Position numbers and translations under genes: made by a program. Shown here piece by piece: positions 3,212 to 50,692 of a stretch of DNA of 64,000 nt. The notes beneath the pieces were generated by a model that saw only the letters and a list, made by a program, of their open reading frames with translations, had not been told where the DNA came from and made no database searches. Where the stretch lies: NCBI GenBank assembly GCA_016871675.1, contig VHCN01000001.1:1-64000 (forward strand). The letters are read 5' to 3'. The DNA comes from Verrucomicrobiota bacterium (GTDB taxonomy: Bacteria > Verrucomicrobiota > Verrucomicrobiia > Limisphaerales > VHCN01). The stretch's first letter is position 1, and every line of letters begins with the position of its first letter.

Positions 3212-3610
3212 TCACCCACGCTTCACGTTCGCGCCGCAGTGGGCGCAGAAGTTCGCCGAGGGCGGGCAGTCCGTGCCGCAGTTCGCGCAGGCCACGTGCT
3301 CGTCGAGGTGCCGGTGATGGATGACGAGGTTGCGCACGTAGGGAATCCACGTGAACGCGTAGGCGAAGATGAACACCGAGTCGCGCTTGCCGACGAGCGC
3401 ATAGAGGAAGAGCAGCAGCGAACCCACGAGGCTCAGCCACCAAAACGCGACCGGCACCACCACCTGCTTTTTCTTTTCCGTCGCGCGCCATTGCACGAAG
3501 AAGCGCGCCGCAAAGACCGCGTTGCCGAGCCACCCCACGACCTTCCACACCGACCACGTGATGCCGAGGAACTTCCCGTCGAAGAACACCAGGTCGTGCA
3601 GCCAGTCCAT
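3212..3610 (-). CDS. LAB_N (lipid A biosynthesis N-terminal) membrane protein with zinc ribbon
   Basis: 132 residues. The first ~100 match the LAB_N domain, three to four membrane helices with FFVQWRATEKKK, FWWLSLVGS and YVRNL motifs, seen in small membrane proteins associated with lipid A modification. The tail has two CxxC pairs (CANCG...CAHCG) forming a short zinc ribbon facing the cytoplasm. The ribbon is not a usual part of LAB_N proteins, so this looks like a domain fusion. A glycosyltransferase partner is often found next to LAB_N genes but is absent here. Confidence 0.7.
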   Translation of the reverse strand: MDWLHDLVFFDGKFLGITWSVWKVVGWLGNAVFAARFFVQWRATEKKKQVVVPVAFWWLSLVGSLLLFLYALVGKRDSVFIFAYAFTWIPYVRNLVIHHRHLDEHVACANCGTDCPPSANFCAHCGANVKRG

Positions 3611-3725
3611 GCGCGGAGGATGGTCGCGGCGCGGGAAAAAGGGAAGTGTTCAGCTGCCGCGCCCTCATGGGAACGGACGCAAACATATCGTCGCCAGCCC
3701 CCGCGCGCGGGTGCTATAAACCGCC

Positions 3726-6986: not shown

Positions 6987-7010
6987 GACTCCTTTTCGCG
7001 GAGTGAGTGC

Positions 7011-7068
7011 AAAGTTCAAAGTTCAATCTTCACCGTCGAACCCGGAACTTGAAACTTGGAACTTGAAT
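7011..7068. repeat. Divergent pair of heptamer arrays between FMN reductase and rph
   Basis: Left arm (7011-7031): three 7-bp units of the form AAAGTTC. Right arm (7044-7064, fading to 7068): units GGAACTT, GAAACTT, GGAACTT, the inverse of the left arm. Each arm presents TTGNAA on the strand of the gene it faces. For rph, TTGGAA at 7056-7061 is 18 bp before TACCAT at 7080-7085, an acceptable promoter layout. The units recur at 36006 and 45165. Confidence 0.7.
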
Positions 7069-7095
7069 CGCCGCCGCCCTACCATCCGCGCGCTT

Positions 7096-17158: not shown

Positions 17159-18366
17159 CGTCCCTCGACAATCCGCAATCGGAAATCGAAAATCGGCAAT
17201 CCTCCGAGACCGTCGTCGCCGTGCGCGGGCTCACGAAGATTTTCAACGACTTCTGGGGCCGGCCCAAAGCCAAGGCCGTGGACAACGTGGACTTCGAAAT
17301 CCGCCGCGGCGAGGTCTTCGGGTTGCTCGGGCCCAACGGCTCCGGCAAGTCCACCACGATCAAGATGCTCCTTGGCCTGCTCTACCCGACCCGCGGCCAT
17401 ATCGAGGTCTTCGGCCACTCGCCGCGCCACGTGAAAACCAAGGCGCGCCTCGGCTACCTGCCCGAGGAGTCCTACCTCTACCGCTACCTGAATTCCCGCG
17501 AGACGCTCGAGTTCTTCGGCAACCTCTTCGAACTCGCGCCCAACGACCGGCGCTACCGCGCCGAGCAACTCCTCGAGATGGTCGGCCTCAACCAGGTCCG
17601 CTCCCGCACCGTCGGCGAATTCTCCAAGGGCATGCAACGCCGCATCGGCCTCGCGCAGGCGCTCATCAACGACCCCGACCTCGTCATCCTCGACGAACCC
17701 ACCGCCGGCCTCGACCCCATCGGCTGCCGCGAGGTCAAGGACCTCATCCTCACCCTCGCGCGCCGCGGCAAGACCATCATCCTCTCCAGCCACCTGCTCG
17801 CCGACGTGGAGGATGTGTGCGACCGCGTGGTCATCTACTACGGCGGCAAGATTCACGCGCAAGGCACACTCAACGAACTGCTCAGCGAGCGCGACACCGT
17901 GCGCATCACGTCGCCCGCGCTGCCCCGCGAGACGATGCAGAAGGTTCTCGACACCATCCGCGCGGACGTCGCCGGGGACAAGGTCACCGTGGACAACCCG
18001 ACGCAGAACCTCGAGAGCTACTTCCTCGGCGTGGTCGAGAGAGCGCGCGCGGGCGAGCAGCAGACGTCCGGCGCGTTGTCCGGGTCGCAAGTGGCCGCCT
18101 ACCTGCGCACCGGCGCGGTCGACGCCTCCGGCACGGACAAGTTGCTTGAACGCTTCACCGCGCCCGCCGCCGTCACGCCCGCCGCCGCGCCGCAGGTCGT
18201 CGTGGCCGACGAGCAGGAGTCCGCGAGCCGCAAGAAGCTCGACGCGCTCGCGAAGTCCGCGCCCGCGGCCGCGCCCGCGCCACCGAGGGTCGCCGTGGCC
18301 GATGCGGGCAAGACCGCCGACACCAAGGCCGACGACAAGCTCTCATCCCTGCTCAGAAAGAAGTGA
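17155..18366 (+). CDS. ABC transporter ATP-binding protein with Ala/Pro-rich C-terminal tail
   Basis: 403 residues from ATG 17155. The nucleotide-binding domain is complete: Walker A GPNGSGKST, Q-loop region LGYLPEES, signature EFSKGMQRR, Walker B LVILDEPTAGLDP and the switch His in IILSSH. It is the DrrA/CcmA-like class that pairs with ABC-2 permeases, here those at 18485 and probably 9630. After ~310 comes a long Ala/Pro/Lys-rich tail ending SSLLRKK, unusual for the family. Residues 6-17 are encoded by a five-unit heptamer array. The start was chosen because the upstream open frame is not protein-like. Confidence 0.9.
   Translation: MTSLDNPQSEIENRQSSETVVAVRGLTKIFNDFWGRPKAKAVDNVDFEIRRGEVFGLLGPNGSGKSTTIKMLLGLLYPTRGHIEVFGHSPRHVKTKARLGYLPEESYLYRYLNSRETLEFFGNLFELAPNDRRYRAEQLLEMVGLNQVRSRTVGEFSKGMQRRIGLAQALINDPDLVILDEPTAGLDPIGCREVKDLILTLARRGKTIILSSHLLADVEDVCDRVVIYYGGKIHAQGTLNELLSERDTVRITSPALPRETMQKVLDTIRADVAGDKVTVDNPTQNLESYFLGVVERARAGEQQTSGALSGSQVAAYLRTGAVDASGTDKLLERFTAPAAVTPAAAPQVVVADEQESASRKKLDALAKSAPAAAPAPPRVAVADAGKTADTKADDKLSSLLRKK
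17170..17204 (+). repeat. Heptamer array within the ABC ATPase start region
   Basis: Five consecutive 7-bp units beginning AAT (AATCCGC, AATCGGA, AATCGAA, AATCGGC, AATCCTC). The array lies 15 bp inside the coding sequence and encodes a Gln/Asn/Ser/Glu-rich stretch. Gain or loss of one unit would shift the reading frame. The AAYCGGC unit type recurs at 48599. Confidence 0.7.
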
Positions 18367-30825: not shown

Positions 30826-31512
30826 ATGGCCGCGCCCGCGCCCAATCCCGAGTTGCTGCCGTCACTGCGCCACCTGGTGCGCGGGTTGTCCGTGCTGTTT
30901 TGGGGTCTGCCCTTCGCGCTGCTCTCGTGCGCTCACGTCGCCACGTGGGAGTGGCTCCGCACCGTCGGCGCAGTTCCCGCGGTGCTTGGCACGGGGATGC
31001 TCTTTTACGGACTCGCGGAGATCGGGCATTTCCAACGGCAGGAGCGCATCTGGCAATCGGCGGTCGAGCGCGCGAAGGTGCCGGCGTTCATCAACGTCGG
31101 GCTCTCGCCGTTCGTGTATTGGTATAACAAGGTGAACAGCGAACTCACGTTCCAGCTCGCGGTTGGGCTGCTGGCCTTGGCGGGGGTGGTCTTCCTGTTC
31201 AACTTGAACCTCGTCCTCCAGCGACTCGCCGCGATGCTGCCGGACGAAACGATGCGCGGGGACGTGCGATTGTTCTCGTCGCTCAACACCGGCCTGCTGC
31301 TCGGCGTGCTGGGCGTGGCCACGGCGTTCTTCGGGCTGCAGGAGGTGAACACGCTGCCGCGCGCGATGATCGCCGTGCTCGAGGTGATCCGCGAGTCGCG
31401 CGGGCCCATCGCATTGGGACTCATCCTGCCGCCCGTGGCGCTGACGATGAGCCTGTTGTGGAAGATGAAGGAGGTCGTCGTGGCGAGCGTGTTCGAGCCG
31501 GAGCGCCACTGA
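30826..31512 (+). CDS. Five-helix membrane protein of unknown function
   Basis: 228 residues from ATG 30826. About five hydrophobic helices: ~18-38, ~43-65, ~103-128, ~147-167 and ~188-208. Loops carry charged residues (RQERIWQSAVERAKV; LPDETMRGDVRLFSSLN). No catalytic motif is recognised. The pattern of codon use and length of helices support a real gene. It is 129 bp after speA on the same strand. No function is proposed. Confidence 0.65.
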   Translation: MAAPAPNPELLPSLRHLVRGLSVLFWGLPFALLSCAHVATWEWLRTVGAVPAVLGTGMLFYGLAEIGHFQRQERIWQSAVERAKVPAFINVGLSPFVYWYNKVNSELTFQLAVGLLALAGVVFLFNLNLVLQRLAAMLPDETMRGDVRLFSSLNTGLLLGVLGVATAFFGLQEVNTLPRAMIAVLEVIRESRGPIALGLILPPVALTMSLLWKMKEVVVASVFEPERH

Positions 31513-31645
31513 CGGGATGAGGAACCGCGCCGGGCGCAGAAACCAGCCGCTCGGTGGCGGGGCTGTAGATCACACGCCGTCTCCGTTTCAGCCGCTTCAG
31601 ACCCGCGAGGTGCCAGAGCAGGTTTGCAGAAGGCGCTGCGGAAAG

Positions 31646-31723
31646 TGGTCGGAGCGACAGGATTTGAACCTGCGACGTCTTGGTCCCAAACCAAGTGCTC
31701 TAGCCAGGCTGAGCTACGCTCCG
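31646..31723 (-). tRNA. tRNA-Pro(TGG)
   Basis: Read on the minus strand: acceptor CGGAGCG pairs with CGCTCCG, the anticodon stem-loop is CTTGG-TTTGGGA-CCAAG with anticodon TGG, and the T-loop is TTCAAAT. The discriminator A (31649) is followed by an encoded CCA (31646-31648). It reads CCA and, by wobble, other proline codons. Confidence 0.97.
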
Positions 31724-31736
31724 CTGAACCGCGCGC

Positions 31737-31766
31737 ACTATGCTACCCCACAAGTCCGCGGAGCAA
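31737..31766 (-). promoter_or_regulatory. Candidate promoter of tRNA-Pro
   Basis: On the minus strand, TTGCTC (31761-31766) and CATAGT (31737-31742) are 18 bp apart, and the tRNA begins 13 bp further. The boxes are weak, and position is the main support. Confidence 0.35.
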
Positions 31767-31830
31767 ACGGAATCTCAAGCGCGCTTGCCGGGGACGGCCA
31801 CGCCTACTGGTGCGAGGCGCGCCGCGTTCC

Positions 31831-33348
31831 TCACGCCACCAGTCCGCGGATCACGTGTCCGTGCACATCGGTCAGCCTTCGATCAATGCCGTTGTGCCGG
31901 AACGTGAGCCGCTCGTGGTCCACGCCGAGCAGGTGCAGCATCGTGGCGTGGATGTCATACACCGTCGTCGGATTGTTTCGGTCCGCGGGCTTGTAGCCCC
32001 ACAGATCGCTCTCGCCGTGTGTCACGCCGGGCTTGATGCCGCCGCCGCACAGCCAGTTCGTGAAGCAAAACGGGTTGTGATCGCGCCCCTTCCCGCCCTG
32101 CGTGCTTGGCATGCGGCCGAACTCCGTCGTCCACAGGACGATCGTGTCGTCGAGCAGTCCGCGCTGCTTCAGGTCGAGGATGAGCGCGGACGCGCCGCGC
32201 GCGAAGCCCGCCGCTAGCGGGCCGTGGTCGCGCTGCACGTCCTCGTGCGAATCCCAGTTGCGGCGCGGGAAGCCGTTGTCGTTGCCGCTCCAGACTTGCA
32301 CGAAGCGCACACCGCGCTCGAGCAGCCGCCGGGCCACGAGGCACTTGCGCCCGAAGCAGTCGCGCTCCTCGCCGGCGTTGATTTCCTTCGGCCAGGTTGG
32401 CGGATATCGCTTCACGCCGTAGAGGTCGAGCATCGCGTCGGGCTCTTTGGAGATATCGAGCGCCTCGGGCGCGGCGAGTTGCATGCGCGCGGCCAGTTCG
32501 TAGCTGCGGATCCGCGCGTCGAGCCGGCCATCGCCCTCGCGGGTCGCGGCGTGGTCGCGATTCAACTTCGCCAGGACCGACTGCGCCGCCGCCTCGCTGT
32601 CGCGCGTGATGAAATCGCCCTTTTTGTGCGCGAACAAATCCGCGATGGGCGTTTCGGCGCCCGGATGAATCACCGTGCCCGAGTAGTGCGACGGCAGAAA
32701 CGCGGCGTCCCAGTTCTTCGAACCGTTGGACGCGAAACCGCGGTGGTCCGGCAGCACAACGAACGTGGGCAGGTTTTCGTTCTCCGTGCCGAGTCCGTAG
32801 CTGACCCAGCAGCCCATGCCGGGGAATCCCGGCAGGTTGAAGCCCGTCGCCTGCAACAGCGTGGCCTGCGAATGCACGCCGGTCTTGCCGACGAGGTCGT
32901 GGACAAAGGCGAGTTCATCCGCGACGCGCCCGAGGTCGGCGACCGGTTCGCTCAACATCCTGCCGGTTTGTCCGTAAGGCTTGAACTCCCACACCGGGCG
33001 CAGCCACGGGCCGAGACCGTTCTGGAACGCCTCGACCGGCTCGCCGAAGTCCGACGGCTCGCCGTGGCGCTTGATCAGCTCGGGCTTGAAGTCGAACAGG
33101 TCAAGGTGGCTCGCCGCGCCGGCCATGAAGAGCTGCACGACGCGCTTCGCCTTCGGCGCGAAATGTGGCGTGCGACATTCAGCATGCGGAGTGGCGGACC
33201 GCGCCTCGGCTGCGGGCAGGTTTTCGCGGCCGAGCAAACTCGCGAGCGCGATGCCTCCGAGCCCGCCGCCGCTGCGCCAGAGGAATTCGCGGCGTGTCCG
33301 TGCGCGTGACTGACGCGGGAGCCGGTGGAATGGCGAGTCGTTCCTCAT
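31831..33348 (-). CDS. DUF1501 domain-containing protein, Tat-exported
   Basis: 505 residues from ATG 33348, with the twin-arginine signal RTRREFLWRSGGGLGGIALA. The DUF1501 core is present: KAKRVVQLFMAGAASHLDLFD, GMGCWVSYGLGTENENLP, the TTEFGRMPSTQGGKGRDHNP block and DIHATMLHLLGVDHERLT. The start lies 2 bp after the stop of the PSD1 gene on the same strand, the usual partnership in this phylum; the pair is thought to act in outer-compartment polysaccharide breakdown. Residues after the signal (SATPHAECRTPHFA) are encoded by a degenerate period-8 stretch around 33168-33206. Confidence 0.92.
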   Translation of the reverse strand: MRNDSPFHRLPRQSRARTRREFLWRSGGGLGGIALASLLGRENLPAAEARSATPHAECRTPHFAPKAKRVVQLFMAGAASHLDLFDFKPELIKRHGEPSDFGEPVEAFQNGLGPWLRPVWEFKPYGQTGRMLSEPVADLGRVADELAFVHDLVGKTGVHSQATLLQATGFNLPGFPGMGCWVSYGLGTENENLPTFVVLPDHRGFASNGSKNWDAAFLPSHYSGTVIHPGAETPIADLFAHKKGDFITRDSEAAAQSVLAKLNRDHAATREGDGRLDARIRSYELAARMQLAAPEALDISKEPDAMLDLYGVKRYPPTWPKEINAGEERDCFGRKCLVARRLLERGVRFVQVWSGNDNGFPRRNWDSHEDVQRDHGPLAAGFARGASALILDLKQRGLLDDTIVLWTTEFGRMPSTQGGKGRDHNPFCFTNWLCGGGIKPGVTHGESDLWGYKPADRNNPTTVYDIHATMLHLLGVDHERLTFRHNGIDRRLTDVHGHVIRGLVA

Positions 33349-33350
33349 GC

Positions 33351-36170
33351 TCAATCCACGAAGGCAAACTCGTTCAAGTTGAACAGCAGGCGACAGGCAT
33401 TCGCGAGGCCGTGCTGGTTGGCGAAGGCGGTGAGGTCGCCGGCTTCCTTCGCACTTGGCGGGCGGCCGAGGGCTTCGGTGAAGGCGCGTTTCACTTGGGT
33501 CGCGGTGTCGCCACCGGCCGTGTTGAGTGTCGCGGCGAAGTGCTTCGACATCGTGACCATCAGGCCGTTGTTCAGCAGCGCGAGGGCTTGCAGCGCGGAG
33601 ACGCTCTCGTTGCGGCGGCTCACGGAGATGGACGGGTCGGCGCAGTCGAGCGTCGTCATGAACGGATGGAGCTGCGAGCGCACGATGAACCGGTAGATCG
33701 AGCGCCGGTGCGAACGCGGGTCGTCCGGGTCGTGCAGGTGATACTCGTAGTGCGGCGAGTGCTCGGGCTTCTCGATGACGAAGTCCTGAAACGCCGGCCC
33801 GCCCATGCGCGGGTCGAGCTTGCCCGCCACGGCCAGCACGCTGTCGCGCACCGACTCCGCGTCGAGCTTGCGGCGGTTCTGGCGCCAAAGGTATCGGTTG
33901 TCGGAATCGATCCAGGCGGCCGCGGGGCCGCGGGGCCGCGGGGCCGCGGGGGAAGCAGCCCGGCGCCGTGTTTCCGCGTCTCCTTGTCCCGGCGTCTCAG
34001 ATGCCTGCCTCCATGTCGCGCTCATCACGATGAGCTTGTGGAGTTTCTTGAACGAACCGCCGCTGTCGCGGAATTCGCACGCAAGCCAGTCGAGCAACTC
34101 CGGATGCGTCGGCCGCGCGCCGTTGCGCCCGAAATCGTTCGGCGTGTCCACGAGCCCGTGCCCGAAGTGGTGCTGCCAGACCCGGTTCACGATGCTGCGC
34201 CAGGCGAGCGGATTGTCCGGCGACGAAAGCCACTTCGCCAGCGCGGCGCGGCGGTCGCCCTCGGCGGCTGACGATGGAATCGAGAAGTGTGAAGGCAACG
34301 CCGAGACGCACGACAGCGCGCCGGGCACGGCCCCTTCTTTCGGTTGCTTCACGTCGCCGCGATGAAGCACGCGAATCTCTCGCGGCTTGCCGCCATCGGG
34401 ACCGGTGCCGCGAAACGACCCGGAGCCGTGGTGCACGGTGCCGGCGTAAACCACCTTGGGCGCGGGCAGCTTGGCGAGTTCGGCGGCGACTTCGTTCGTG
34501 GTTTTCGCGTGCGTGGCGAACTCGGCGAGCAGCGAGGCTTCCGCCACTCGCGCGACGAGGTCCGCGCGCTGCCGTTCGAGGTCGGCGAGCTTCGTCGCGG
34601 GCTGGCCCTTTCCCGCGCCGTAGTAGTAGCCGTCGGTGAGGTTCTTCCGGCTCCACCTCGGCAGCGCCTCGATGGAGTCGGGCGACGTCACGGCAGCGCC
34701 GAGCGCGAGGTTCCTGCCGGATTTGTCGAGCGCCTGCACTTCGGCGAGCGCGAAGATGAAGTCGTTCTGCCGCGGCGCGAGCTTGGTCGCGGTGAAGCGC
34801 AGGAATCGCGCCGTCCTGCCGGCGGCGATGGAACGAGGTGAAACGCCGGGATTGGGCACGTCGGCCTTTGACTGGTCTTCGAGCATCGTCACGCCCTGCT
34901 CGAAGTTCGCGTCGTCTCCCGCCTCGACCTTGAAGCGCACGGGAAATCCGAAGCCCGCGCCGATGTTGTTGAAGTTGTCGTGGCACGCGACATACACAAC
35001 CTGCTCGACCGGCACGGAGGCGCCGAGGTCCACCTGCACCCATTTCACCACCTCCTGTTTCGCGGAAATCTGGCTGTGCCAGCCGAACTCCGGGCGCTCC
35101 TCGGCGGCCGCGCCGGCCTTCGTCTCGCGGATGAGCTTGTCGAGCAGTTCGAGGTCGCGACCGCCCGCGGCGGCAAGCTGCTTGTTGAGGGCGTCCAGCT
35201 TCGGCTTGAGGTCGCGCTGCTTCGCCAGCAAGTCCGCGCGGCGCCGCGCGATGGCGGGATCGGTGTCGTAAGTCTTGTCCGCGCGGTCAAGCGCGGCGAA
35301 GACGGCTTGCAGCGAGTAGTAATCGGCCTGCGGGATGGGGTCGAACTTGTGATCGTGGCATTGCGCGCAGTGCACGGTGAGGCTCGCGAACGTGCTCATC
35401 GTGTTCGCGACCATGTCGTCGCGGTCCAGGTGGCGCGCGATCTTGCCGTCAATCTTCGTCTCCGGCACCTCGGCGTGGCCGATGAGATCCCACGGGCCGG
35501 CCGCGATGAAACCGAGCGCCTCGACACCGTCCTGCGTGCCGGGGAACAGCACGTCACCGGCGATCTGCTCCTGCACGAATCGCGCGTAGGGCTTGTCGCC
35601 GTTGAAGGCGCGGATGACGTAGTCGCGATAAGGCCAGGCGTTTGGGCGCGGCTTGTCCTTGTCGTAACCGTGCGTGTCGCCGTAGTGGACGACATCGAGC
35701 CAGTGCCGCGCCCAGCGCTCGCCGTAGTGGGGAGAGGCAAGGAGCTTGTCCACCAGTGCCTCGATGGCGGCTCGCTCCCTTTCTCCCAATCTCCCTTTGT
35801 CCCTGGCATTGTCCGGGGCGGGCGAGCGGGGGAGCGGGGGAGCCGGGGAGAATTCCTTCACGAACGCCTCCACTTCCTCCGGCTTCGGCGGCAGGCCGAG
35901 CAAGTCGAAGTAAAGCCGGCGCACCAGGGTTCGAGCGTCGGCCTCGGGCGATTGCGCGAACTTCTTCTCCACGAGCTTCGCGACGATGAACGCGTCAACG
36001 GGATTTTGAACGTTGAACTTCGAGCCTTGAATCCTCGGGACGGCAGGCCGGACGAGCGGATGGAGCGACCACCCGTCGTTTGAGTCGGTTTGCTTCCGCG
36101 AGTCCGCGGCCGCAACCACGACCGGCAGAACTGCGGCCGCCAGAATTCCGAGGGCGAGCGATCGGTTCAT
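33351..36170 (-). CDS. PSD1 / DUF1549-DUF1553 planctomycete-type protein with cytochrome-like CxxCH
   Basis: 939 residues from ATG 36170; a signal peptide ends near VVAAAD. The DUF1549 part (~45-290) contains NPVDAFIVAKL, RRLYFDLLGLPP, ASPHYGERWARHWLDVVHYGDT and the heme-type site CAQCH at 268-272. A discoidin-like carbohydrate-binding region (~370-520) follows, then DUF1553 (~650-930; NPLAWRSIVNRVWQHHFG, LHKLIVMSATWRQAS, RRNESVSALQALALLNN). It is a periplasmic protein typical of Planctomycetota/Verrucomicrobiota, paired with DUF1501. Three linkers are encoded by 7- or 8-bp arrays (33915, 35775, 36006) without loss of frame. Confidence 0.92.
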   Translation of the reverse strand: MNRSLALGILAAAVLPVVVAAADSRKQTDSNDGWSLHPLVRPAVPRIQGSKFNVQNPVDAFIVAKLVEKKFAQSPEADARTLVRRLYFDLLGLPPKPEEVEAFVKEFSPAPPLPRSPAPDNARDKGRLGERERAAIEALVDKLLASPHYGERWARHWLDVVHYGDTHGYDKDKPRPNAWPYRDYVIRAFNGDKPYARFVQEQIAGDVLFPGTQDGVEALGFIAAGPWDLIGHAEVPETKIDGKIARHLDRDDMVANTMSTFASLTVHCAQCHDHKFDPIPQADYYSLQAVFAALDRADKTYDTDPAIARRRADLLAKQRDLKPKLDALNKQLAAAGGRDLELLDKLIRETKAGAAAEERPEFGWHSQISAKQEVVKWVQVDLGASVPVEQVVYVACHDNFNNIGAGFGFPVRFKVEAGDDANFEQGVTMLEDQSKADVPNPGVSPRSIAAGRTARFLRFTATKLAPRQNDFIFALAEVQALDKSGRNLALGAAVTSPDSIEALPRWSRKNLTDGYYYGAGKGQPATKLADLERQRADLVARVAEASLLAEFATHAKTTNEVAAELAKLPAPKVVYAGTVHHGSGSFRGTGPDGGKPREIRVLHRGDVKQPKEGAVPGALSCVSALPSHFSIPSSAAEGDRRAALAKWLSSPDNPLAWRSIVNRVWQHHFGHGLVDTPNDFGRNGARPTHPELLDWLACEFRDSGGSFKKLHKLIVMSATWRQASETPGQGDAETRRRAASPAAPRPRGPAAAWIDSDNRYLWRQNRRKLDAESVRDSVLAVAGKLDPRMGGPAFQDFVIEKPEHSPHYEYHLHDPDDPRSHRRSIYRFIVRSQLHPFMTTLDCADPSISVSRRNESVSALQALALLNNGLMVTMSKHFAATLNTAGGDTATQVKRAFTEALGRPPSAKEAGDLTAFANQHGLANACRLLFNLNEFAFVD
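33915..33998 (-). repeat. Two adjacent octamer arrays inside the PSD1 gene
   Basis: 33923-33952 holds nearly four units of CGGGGCCG. 33967-33998 holds four degenerate 8-bp units (CGTGTTTC, CGCGTCTC, CTTGTCCC, GGCGTCTC). They encode a Pro/Arg/Ala-rich insertion between the conserved SATWRQAS and YLWRQNRRKLD segments, where family members normally have a short link. Confidence 0.7.
35775..35852 (-). repeat. Inverted pair of octamer arrays inside the PSD1 gene
   Basis: 35775-35806 has four 8-bp units (CTCCCTTT type) and 35821-35852 four units (GGGGAGCG type). The second arm is largely the reverse complement of the first, with a 14-bp spacer, so a long hairpin can form. It encodes a low-complexity Pro/Ser/Arg/Glu link of about 25 residues; the reading frame stays open. 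Confidence 0.75.
36006..36033 (-). repeat. Heptamer array inside the PSD1 gene
   Basis: Four 7-bp units: TTGAACG, TTGAACT, TCGAGCC, TTGAATC on the plus strand. They encode the stretch IQGSKFNVQN just before the conserved NPVDAFIVAKL. The unit is the same type as in the arrays at 7011-7064 and 45165-45199. Confidence 0.65.
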
Positions 36171-36487
36171 GCGGGCTGTTTCCGGGTCGCGAGCGCAGCT
36201 TGGACCACAGGCAACATTGTTTCGACAAGCATCTGGTGGCCTTTGGGATTCGGGTGGCACTGGTCGGTCGTCCACGAGCCGACGTCGCCGCCCCGGGCCT
36301 CGGCCTCGGTCCAGATTTTGAAGTGGTCCACGAGCGGGACCTTCTGCTCCGCTGCGACGGCGCGGCAAGCCTCGGCGAATTGCTCCAGCTGCACGTTGGG
36401 ATGCTCGCCCGCGCCGTTGGGTTTCGCGGCGCGGCGACCGACGAAGACGCAGAGCGATCCAAGAAGGAGGAGCGACGTGTTCTTCAC
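36167..36487 (-). pseudogene. Truncated SGNH/GDSL hydrolase remnant
   Basis: 106 residues. A short hydrophobic start (TSLLLLGSLCVFVG) is followed directly by the last third of an SGNH hydrolase: VPLVDHFKIWTEA and the block V catalytic Asp-His motif DQCHPNPKGHQMLVE. The N-terminal GDS serine block and blocks II-III are absent, and only 21 bp separate it from the upstream gene, so the catalytic core was lost by deletion. The stop overlaps the PSD1 start (ATGA), so it is still translationally coupled and may be expressed. I read it as an in-frame deletion remnant. Confidence 0.6.
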
Positions 36488-36508
36488 GCGAGGTGAGTCG
36501 CAGTCCGG

Positions 36509-37864
36509 TTAGCGCACGCGTGCGCCGGACGACGGCGTGGATTTCAGCCCGAGGCTGTTCACGGCGATGATGCGATACTCGTGGCGCTTGCCGGGCTTGG
36601 CGGTCACGTCCACGAAGCGCATCGCGGGCAGCGGGCCGTCCTTCGGTTTCTCCGGCGTGTCGTGATAAGACATCGGCTGGAACAGCGCGCGGCCGAAGCG
36701 GCCCACGGGTTTTTCGGGAACTTGCGCGAGGAATTGACCGTCGCGCTGGATGATGAAGGCTTGCAGTCCGCTCTCGAAGTCCGCCTCGGCGTCCCACGCG
36801 AGCTCGACGCCGTCCGCCTTCGCCGTCGCCTTCACCGCGACGGGCGCGGGCGGCGGCGTGGTGTCGCCCGTCGCGCCAGTCTTCACGTATTCGGCCCACG
36901 CCTTCGCGACGGACTCCGTCGGCAGCCAGCTCGCGTCCTTCGGCTCCACAGCGTGCTTCGAGGCCGGAGCGAACGTGTCGCCGGGCAGCGGCGCGAAGTA
37001 GCCGGCGCCGAGGTTCACCGGTTTCAACGTCTGCAGGCTCGTGCCCTTCGCCGGGAGCCGCAGCGCGAGGCACGCGTCGAAAAACGGGATCGCGAGATAG
37101 CGCGAGTCGCCGCATTCGTGGCTTGTGCGCGGGTCGGGCGCGAAGCCCACGGGCGCGCCCTTCGCCCGCCACGCCTTGAACATGTCCATCGAACCGGTCC
37201 ACGCGCCGCTGAAGCGCTTGTCGCCGTTTTCCTTCGCGCCCGGATTCATCATCATCGGGATGCCGTAGGCCGCGGCGGGGATTTCTGGCTTTGGAATGTC
37301 GCCCTTCTCCCACGTGGCGAACGCCGTGCCCGAGCGAAACCAGATGGCAACGATGCGCTCGGGATACATCGTCTGCATGAGGCTCGACCAGAAGCCGCCG
37401 CCCGAGTGGCCCCACAGGCACCACGGCACACGCGCGAGTTCGGCGTGGCCGGACGTGGCGCCGAACTCGGCGAGCGCGCGCAGAAAGGTCTGGTGCGAGC
37501 CGTGGCGCGGGTCGCACCAGAGGCGGCAGTTGTCCTTCTCGCTCTGATGATACGACGGGCCGAGCAGCGCGCAGTCCCATTTCTTGGCGAGCGCCTGCCA
37601 GTGCAAGTCGTAAGCCGCGGTCGCGCCGCCCTTGCACGCGCCTTCGCCGCAGCCGTGCTGATGCACGATGACGCCCCGGAACTTCTGCACGCCGTCCGGC
37701 AGCCACAGGGTGTAAGTCACGCCCAGCACGAGTTCGTTCGTGTTCGGCGAGGGTGGGTAAGTGACCTCCAAGTATCGGCCAGCCGCGCGGGCGGTCGCCG
37801 CGGCGCCGAGCAGGACGGCGAGGGTGGACGTGGCGGCGAGGCTGGAAAACGCGCGGCAGTTCAC
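36509..37864 (-). CDS. Secreted alpha/beta hydrolase with C-terminal FN3-like domain
   Basis: 451 residues from GTG 37864, chosen because a good signal peptide follows (cleavage near ARAAG); TTG 37915 is an alternative start. The hydrolase core has an oxyanion region VIVHQHGCGEG, the nucleophile motif WGHSGGGFWSS and a His-containing HECGDSRYLAIPF segment, fitting the PHB depolymerase/feruloyl-esterase-like group. The last ~110 residues (PPPAPVAVKATAKADGVELA...YRIIAVNSLG) form a fibronectin type III-like domain. It is probably a periplasmic or secreted esterase acting on plant or algal polymers, first gene of the minus-strand PSD1-DUF1501 locus. Confidence 0.8.
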   Translation of the reverse strand: MNCRAFSSLAATSTLAVLLGAAATARAAGRYLEVTYPPSPNTNELVLGVTYTLWLPDGVQKFRGVIVHQHGCGEGACKGGATAAYDLHWQALAKKWDCALLGPSYHQSEKDNCRLWCDPRHGSHQTFLRALAEFGATSGHAELARVPWCLWGHSGGGFWSSLMQTMYPERIVAIWFRSGTAFATWEKGDIPKPEIPAAAYGIPMMMNPGAKENGDKRFSGAWTGSMDMFKAWRAKGAPVGFAPDPRTSHECGDSRYLAIPFFDACLALRLPAKGTSLQTLKPVNLGAGYFAPLPGDTFAPASKHAVEPKDASWLPTESVAKAWAEYVKTGATGDTTPPPAPVAVKATAKADGVELAWDAEADFESGLQAFIIQRDGQFLAQVPEKPVGRFGRALFQPMSYHDTPEKPKDGPLPAMRFVDVTAKPGKRHEYRIIAVNSLGLKSTPSSGARVR

Positions 37865-37945
37865 GGTCTGGACAAGTGAGTTCCCGACGATGCGCGGCGC
37901 GCGGAACTTCAGCAATTCCCGTCGCGACGCAGGCGGCGCGACGGC

Positions 37946-38983
37946 TCAACCCTCGGCCGGTTCTTCACCCGGCGGGACCCCGAGCTTGCGCTCAAGTTCG
38001 GCGACGCGCCGGAGCAGGGCGGGCAGTTTCTGCATCGCGATCAACTGGCGCTTCATCGCGCGGTCGGGTTGCGCGGGTGTGCCGAACCACTTCTCGCCGT
38101 CCGCGATGCCGTGCATCACGCCGGACTGCGCCGCGATGGTCACCTGGCTGCCGATCTTGATGTGTCCCGCAAGGCCGACCTGCCCCGCCAGCACGGTGTA
38201 GTCGCCGATCGTTGTGCTGCCGGAAATGCCCGCCTGCCCGCACAAAATGCAATGCTCGCCAATTTCCACGTTGTGCGCGATCTGGCATAGGTTGTCCACC
38301 TTCGAGCCGCGGCCGATCACGGTCGAGCCGAGCGCGCCACGGTCGATGCTCACGTTCGAACCGATCTCCACGTCGTCATGGATGATGACGTTGCCGACTT
38401 GCGGCACCTTGCGGTGCGCGCCGGCGTCGAGCACGTAGCCGAAGCCGTCCGAGCCGACCACGCTGCCGGCATGGATGCGCACGCGCGCGCCGATGCGGGT
38501 GCGCGCATAAACGACGACGTTCGGGAAAAGTTGCGAATCCTCGCCAATGGACGAGTCGTCGCCGATGTGATTGCCGCCTTGCAACACGGCGCGCGGACCG
38601 AGTGTGACGCGCTCCCCGACGACGCAATGCGGGCCGATGTGCGCCGTGGTGTCCACGTTCGCGGACTTCGCCACGACCGCGCCCGGATGGATGCCCGGCT
38701 CGAACATGGGCTCGGGAAAGAACAGCGGCAGCGCGCGCGCGAATCCGACCCGCGCGTTCTTCACGCGGATGAGCGTCTTGGCGCCGGGCTTCACGTCGCC
38801 CGCGACGAGGATGGCCGAGGCCGCGCTTGCCTCGGCCGCGGCGAGATAGGTCTCGGTCTCGGCAAAGGTCAGGTCGCCTTTCCTGGCCGCAGTCGCCGGC
38901 GCGAAGCCCGTGAGCCGCGTGAGCGGGTCGCCGAGGACTTCGCCATGAACGTGCTTTGCAATTTCGGCGGCGGTGTAGGGCAT
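37946..38983 (-). CDS. lpxD: UDP-3-O-(3-hydroxyacyl)glucosamine N-acyltransferase
   Basis: 345 residues, the usual LpxD length. It adds the second acyl chain to UDP-3-O-acyl-glucosamine in lipid A synthesis, using acyl-ACP, in the cytoplasm. An N-terminal substrate-binding domain (~1-100) is followed by a left-handed beta-helix of hexapeptide repeats (~105-305) with the GSDGFGYV loop and the catalytic His in [17 protein letters not shown]-terminal helix contains [11 protein letters not shown]. Shows that the organism makes lipid A. It is divergent from the oxidoreductase at 39095. Confidence 0.95.
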
Positions 38984-45143: not shown

Positions 45144-45164
45144 CGGCGGAAGAGTGTCGGGCGC

Positions 45165-45199
45165 GGTTCAAAGTTCCAAGTTTCAAGTTGCGGGTTCCT
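45165..45199. repeat. Heptamer array upstream of ispD
   Basis: Five units of 7 bp: GGTTCAA, AGTTCCA, AGTTTCA, AGTTGCG, GGTTCCT. On the minus strand they read TTGAAAC/TTGGAAC, facing ispD. The same unit type is found at 7011-7064 and 36006-36033. Confidence 0.7.
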
Positions 45200-48587: not shown

Positions 48588-48598
48588 TGAAACACCAA

Positions 48599-48626
48599 CC
48601 GGCAATCGGCAACCGGCAACCGGCAA
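48599..48626 (+). repeat. Heptamer array between DUF58 and BatA-like genes
   Basis: Four units of 7 bp (CCGGCAA, TCGGCAA, CCGGCAA, CCGGCAA) fill the gap and end 5 bp before ATG 48631. The unit matches the AAYCGGC type inside the ABC ATPase gene at 17170. It occupies the site of a ribosome binding site. Confidence 0.75.
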
Positions 48627-48630
48627 TGCC

Positions 48631-50634: not shown

Positions 50635-50659
50635 ACACGAGCCGCCCCATTCGCCGCCC

Positions 50660-50687
50660 TCGGCCCCCGGCCACCGGCCACCGCCCC
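50660..50687 (+). repeat. Heptamer array between BatA-like and VWA genes
   Basis: Four 7-bp units: TCGGCCC, CCGGCCA, CCGGCCA, CCGCCCC. It ends 5 bp before ATG 50693, the same placement as the array at 48599 relative to the gene after it. Confidence 0.7.
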
Positions 50688-50692
50688 TTCGC

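Follow-up and report, generated by a model that had tools for sequence, protein, structure and literature searches.

Three loops of PSCyt2-PSD1 proteins as probable recurrent sites of tiny dispersed DNA repeats in Verrucomicrobiota

Small dispersed repeats that enter bacterial protein genes are known from several systems. The palindromic elements of Rickettsia (RPEs): these are small dispersed palindromes that lie in frame in numerous protein genes, where the fold can accommodate them (PMC10969869, PMC3733652); they are about 150 bp long and integrate in unrelated metabolic genes (PMC10969869). The heptameric repeats of cyanobacteria, Xanthomonas and Beggiatoaceae (STRR-type, GGGAATC, TAACTGA): these are dispersed and mainly intergenic, with some in ORFs, and the positions reported within proteins are mostly near the ends (PMC4692102, PMC4679880). 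The GTAG/CGTC REPs and REPINs: these are short inverted-pair palindromes that occur in PVC bacteria, on occasion within ORFs (PMC3733652). Here we report arrays of 7- and 8-nt units at three junctions (A, B and C) between conserved blocks of a PSCyt2-PSD1 protein. We consider it likely that these are in-frame residents drawn from families of very small dispersed repeats, with reuse of the junctions and turnover of their contents. As different repeats keep replacing one another in loops A, B and C, these serve as landing sites for tiny dispersed DNA elements.

The host gene occupies positions 33351-36170, minus strand, of the 64,000-nt stretch of DNA that was analysed (the window). It codes for 939 aa with a PSCyt2 domain (PF07583, E-value 2.3e-77), an F5/8 type C-like region and a PSD1 domain (PF07587, 7e-83), and adjoins a DUF1501 gene with a PF07394 domain within 31831-33348. 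The closest named homologue, from a Limisphaerales bacterium, is 67% identical, so that the window probably belongs to this order. The window genome has 48 PSCyt2 matches (about 48 copies of the family per genome), with the closest paralogue of the host gene 49% identical to it, and its PSD1 paralogues are old. A short ORF at 36167-36487 has a match confined to the C-terminal part of a GDSL lipase domain and is probably a gene remnant.

All arrays of the gene are on its own minus strand. Junction A (36003-36033), flanked by RPAVP and NPVDAFI, holds a degenerate heptamer array of sense GTTCAAN. Its period-7 match of 0.67 (36006-36033), which is equalled by 1.4e-3 of windows, is weak taken alone; the array is supported because the GTTCAAN heptamer is also present at junction A of four paralogues (L003_12, L004_10, L005_7 and L010_9). 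Junction B is formed, in the sense of the gene, by an arm of CTCCCNNN octamers (35821-35852) and an arm of inverted octamers, NNNGGGAG (35775-35806), with CTCCC conserved and NNN variable across the pair. Junction C is likewise an inverted pair (GRGRCnnn / nnnGYCYC): its first arm (33967-33998) has degenerate octamers of sense GRGACNNN, whose period-8 match of 0.62 is equalled by 6e-4 of windows and is weak by itself, and its second (33918-33952) has four near-perfect GGCCGCGG octamers. Tandem Repeats Finder reported arrays at 33918-33951 (GGCCGCGG x4.2, 100% matches, score 68), 35775-35804 and 35818-35850, the last two of period 8. Equally periodic windows in 1.22 Mb of the same genome are rare for the three stronger arrays (1.4e-5 for 33923-33952, 1.5e-4 for 35775-35806, 5e-5 for 35821-35852). 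The four octamer arrays of the window are, then, two inverted pairs: B at 35775-35852 and C at 33918-33998.

A sequence-only reading of the window had proposed these octamer arrays, with the inverted pair at 35775-35852, the heptamer array at 36006-36033, and a similar stretch in the DUF1501 gene. The inverted pair and the 33923-33952 array are borne out by the measures above, and alignment places the arrays at junctions between conserved blocks as claimed; the inverted arrangement at junction C was not part of that reading. The two arrays that are weak alone are retained, that at 33967-33998 as the inverted partner of 33918-33951 and the heptamers by their recurrence in paralogues. The arrays of the PSCyt2-PSD1 gene are thus real, but the N-terminal DUF1501 stretch (33168-33206, minus strand) has no significant array: its period-7 match of 0.44 (3% of windows equal it) and period-8 match of 0.26 rule it out. 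An array is found in a paralogue of the DUF1501 gene (L007, 7330-7366). It had further been claimed that the arrays keep the frame, which holds but is expected of any intact gene. In one homologue (L033, about 3566-3690) the PSD1 frame breaks where a CAACCCTT octamer hairpin sits in junction C, representing a pseudogene, an assembly error or a length-variable switch.

In a structure model of the protein (pLDDT 68), junctions B and C are loops with pLDDT below 50. The junction-B hairpin has a folding z of -1.9. A role as RNA hairpin was considered and set aside: the folding excess is strong in some inserts (z -5.1 and -5.7), but junction C of the window has no extra stability (z +0.9), hence a weak hairpin. 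An Rfam covariance-model search of 31000-38500 matched a single tRNA gene (RF00005; 31649-31723, minus strand) and no RNA family in the PSD1 region.

Arrays of the same kinds recur in the window genome. The survey covered 1.22 of its 3.61 Mb, partly chosen for PSD1 genes, and used a simple gene caller; its HMM admitted two non-PSD1 proteins, both array-free. A 423-kb portion contains 20 four-unit arrays of period 7 and 6 of period 8 at 80% match (triplet shuffles: 0 and 0), and none of periods 10 to 16; among long units a clear excess over shuffles is seen at periods 7 and 8 only. Across the 1.22 Mb there are 67 period-7 arrays versus about 3 in shuffles, together with 8 period-7 and 6 period-8 hairpins built from two inverted arrays, versus none in shuffles. 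Heptamer units from separate loci share a motif, with an aligned information of 4.2 bits versus 2.8-3.2 for permuted units. Scans of the whole genome gave 17 matches to CTCCCNNNCTCCCNNNCTCCC, the pattern of the CTCCC array (reversed control 0), and 50 to TTGAACT arrays (control 7); CTCCC and CTCCGCGT are the genome's own families. An intergenic inverted pair of TTGAACT heptamer arrays at window 7003-7071 belongs to the unit family of junction A. A genome search for the inverted octamer pair, proposed with the sequence-only reading, found it elsewhere, including at the same junctions of other PSD1 paralogues. The repeats are dispersed families, and not a peculiarity of one odd gene.

Further heptamer arrays lie at gene edges or between genes of the window (17165-17204, 45162-45198, 48590-48630 and 50651-50689). 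Other in-frame hosts in the window genome are a 794-aa ORF (C82) and an ORF (C75) containing LLHGVTGSGKTEVYLQAI, which we take from its sequence to be PriA-like. An in-frame octamer array is present in a PriA-like ORF of locus L226 (about 2010-2060), adjoining the motif GVTGSGKT.

Such arrays could be ordinary microsatellites: local 7- and 8-mers slipping in disordered linkers under selection for frame, with no moving element. Heptameric repeats are over-represented in many bacteria, for which slippage has been proposed (PMC4692102); the 21-bp changes of unit number at junction A in a related genus (see below) and the clean tandem expansion of GGCCGCGG x4 at 33918 are compatible with this. Slippage, however, makes neither an inverted partner array nor a unit motif shared genome-wide; nor does it explain dispersed copies of one hairpin family, or one hairpin at one position of eight diverged paralogues. 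Local slippage alone is ruled out by the inverted pairs and the dispersal, and we regard the microsatellite explanation in general as unlikely.

Within genes the arrays are strongly concentrated. The survey counted 21 in 93 kb of PSD1 coding DNA, 31 in about 114 kb of intergenic DNA and 21 (with 4 more at gene edges) in 975 kb of other coding DNA, which amounts to 0.23, about 0.27 and 0.02 arrays per kb, respectively; PSD1 coding DNA is about ten times richer in arrays than other coding DNA. All but two of the 21 PSD1 arrays are at the junctions (9 at A, 6 at B, 4 at C), which together comprise 4.5% of the residues (P about 4e-24 for 19/21, assuming independence). The filled sites are scattered over the paralogue tree, requiring at least 8, 5 and 3 changes at A, B and C, and the units at junction A vary among paralogues (e.g. 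GTTCAAR, TTGCGGA, TGCCGCC and GCAATCG).

Other genera and families use the same junctions. Among 95 homologous loci of Verrucomicrobiota and Planctomycetota (a few represent one species sampled twice), insertions of at least 6 aa are found almost only at A, B and C, and most loci have a short linker, that is, an empty site. Filled homologues carry unrelated repeats at the three junctions, differing between species: octamer hairpins with various units, heptamer arrays, and palindromes, one of them a GTAG palindrome that has heptamers nested in it. Three homologues have inverted pairs of the GTAGCAGCCGACGT(G/A)AGGAGGCTC type (GTAG REP) at junction C, and junction A of L034 contains another in-frame palindrome, GGAGGGACGAGCTCCGCGAGTCCC with a near inverse. 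Alignment of homologues had been named as the check on insertion, the same linker peptides at the same places in distant genera being the result that would speak against it; the other genera and families lack them, a result that favours insertion.

Comparison of ten genomes of one genus, in which the nearest compared alleles are about 80% identical, displays turnover at individual sites. Junction A alleles are either short or about 21 nt longer with one of several heptamers, the unit number changing by 3 x 7 = 21 bp. Junction C is empty in some genomes (SSSVQRAAA); with the same flanks, it is filled in others by an 87-nt heptamer hairpin. With an octamer hairpin, a second heptamer hairpin and a GTAG palindrome that encloses heptamers, this junction has at least four different inserts. 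The empty and filled alleles differ between CAG repeats, which fits a 3-bp duplication or a microhomology deletion; neither a target-site duplication nor a mobilising enzyme was identified, the transposase search covering Y1 only. In two species the 87-nt hairpin has TGG where an in-frame TGA would fall, which is consistent with selection against stops. The spread of small elements proposed by the sequence-only reading is therefore supported and largely right, but its picture of single insertions is off: the sites were reused and turned over repeatedly.

The clearest case of sharing among paralogues comes from a relative, G040, with an octamer family of unit CACTTTCY and head CACCTGC that has 79 arm matches genome-wide and no match in the window genome. 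Eight PSD1 paralogues of G040 have the CACTTTCY hairpin at an identical position of junction B. Among seven of these, insert DNA is 80% identical, compared with 61% (DNA) and 40% (protein) for the flanks; at third codon positions of all eight, identity reaches 0.76 within the insert, against 0.67-0.69 for the best conserved blocks nearby and 0.43 just to its right. As the insert is more alike than its flanks, third positions included, the CACTTTCY insert DNA postdates the gene duplications or is copied between paralogues. Across five genomes, 14 of the 18 distinct head-inward copies are at junction B (11 assigned by script; L230, L235 and L248 by reading flanks), and the head-outward copies sampled in G040 are at other sites. 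We tentatively raise the possibility of an octamer hairpin subtype dedicated to junction B, moving from paralogue to paralogue at one codon position, with the head-inward form rare elsewhere. If so, the PSCyt2-PSD1 paralogous family would be the niche of the element, a site-directed linker cassette with head-outward relatives elsewhere. A second dispersed octamer hairpin family, of unit GGAGTGNT, was found in 8/8 genomes tested (G040, G043 and G038 among them; control 0) and also makes up junction C of L031. A search for an apex conserved among the octamer hairpins of several genomes gave nothing convincing, the shared head (CACCKGC) being confined to the CACTTTCY family.

Alternatively, one ancient linker insertion could have been inherited by all paralogues as a useful peptide or hairpin, its units changing by drift and concerted change. 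The left border of junction B (VREF/VREC codons) recurs in genomes with different units, in octamer as well as heptamer inserts, and certain orthologous hairpins have been retained (L059 and L186). Against this, most of the 95 loci have the short linker, the G040 inserts are more alike than their flanks even at third codon positions, unrelated repeats or none occupy the junctions within a genus, and filled sites are scattered on the paralogue tree. A single ancient insertion is, to our minds, improbable. On a narrower scale, there are hints that an old junction B insert may have had its units replaced by the active family of its genome, because the left border is shared despite the different units; this border fits equally with fresh insertion.

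Under the explanation we favour, residence of small dispersed repeats at reused junctions, the families would comprise heptamer arrays and hairpins of two inverted octamer (or heptamer) arrays, mostly intergenic and within genes mainly in loops A, B and C of PSCyt2-PSD1 paralogues. An element would arrive at a junction either by inserting there or through conversion from a copy elsewhere, and the array would then grow or shrink by whole units. Those would survive that have a length in multiples of three, no stop on the strand that is read, and a peptide that the loop tolerates. Paralogues within one genome would share unit families, and one junction would hold different repeats across species because the circulating families differ between genomes. 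Observed directly are the periodic and inverted build of the arrays, their dispersal, their specificity for the junctions, and the reuse and turnover of these sites; we infer a copying step by targeted insertion or ectopic conversion, enzymes that carry it out, and neutrality for the protein.

Mobilisation of the elements as REP sequences by RAYT (Y1) transposases is very improbable: the GTAG family reaches 129 copies in G017 and 147 in G040, both Y1-encoding, and occurs at junction C of three homologues, yet the window genome (G000) has abundant arrays, themselves without a GTAG palindrome, with one GTAG REP copy and no Y1_Tnp match. Y1 is present in 9/9 relatives tested and has no match in the window genome, so the window arrays are probably independent of RAYTs; on the lack of a match we reject such mobilisation there, and it may apply to the GTAG inserts of relatives.

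Set beside the described systems, the arrays resemble the STRR-type heptamers in having degenerate 7-bp units in tandem at more dispersed loci than chance would give; unlike these, they lie in internal loops, include octamers as well as heptamers and often form inverted pairs. The GTAG REP/REPIN palindrome itself is present at junction C in relatives, in contrast to the window inserts, which are tandem 7- and 8-mers without it. The small dispersed repeats (SDRs) of Nostoc (Elhai 2008) are reportedly very small elements linked to heptamer arrays through nesting, as are the heptamers nested in the GTAG palindrome here, but are single hairpins of 21-27 nt. The open-access papers searched describe neither inverted octamer arrays nor such recurrent occupation of the loops of one paralogous family, an absence that is weak evidence. 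The RPEs, to which the sequence-only reading had likened the arrays, resemble them by description as dispersed palindromic repeats in frame in protein genes. The likeness lies in how the elements work and does not make them one family, with units, length and architecture differing: the arrays are 30-90 bp long, composed of degenerate 7- or 8-mers and often in inverted pairs. Rickettsia, with unrelated host genes, supplies most known cases of small in-frame repeats in bacterial proteins; here such repeats concentrate on three loops of one paralogous family, one kind replacing another. Filled, emptied and refilled across a bacterial order, these loops are a natural replicated experiment in element spread and linker gain, and comparing alleles at fixed sites makes the question of what moves or copies such 7- and 8-nt arrays testable.
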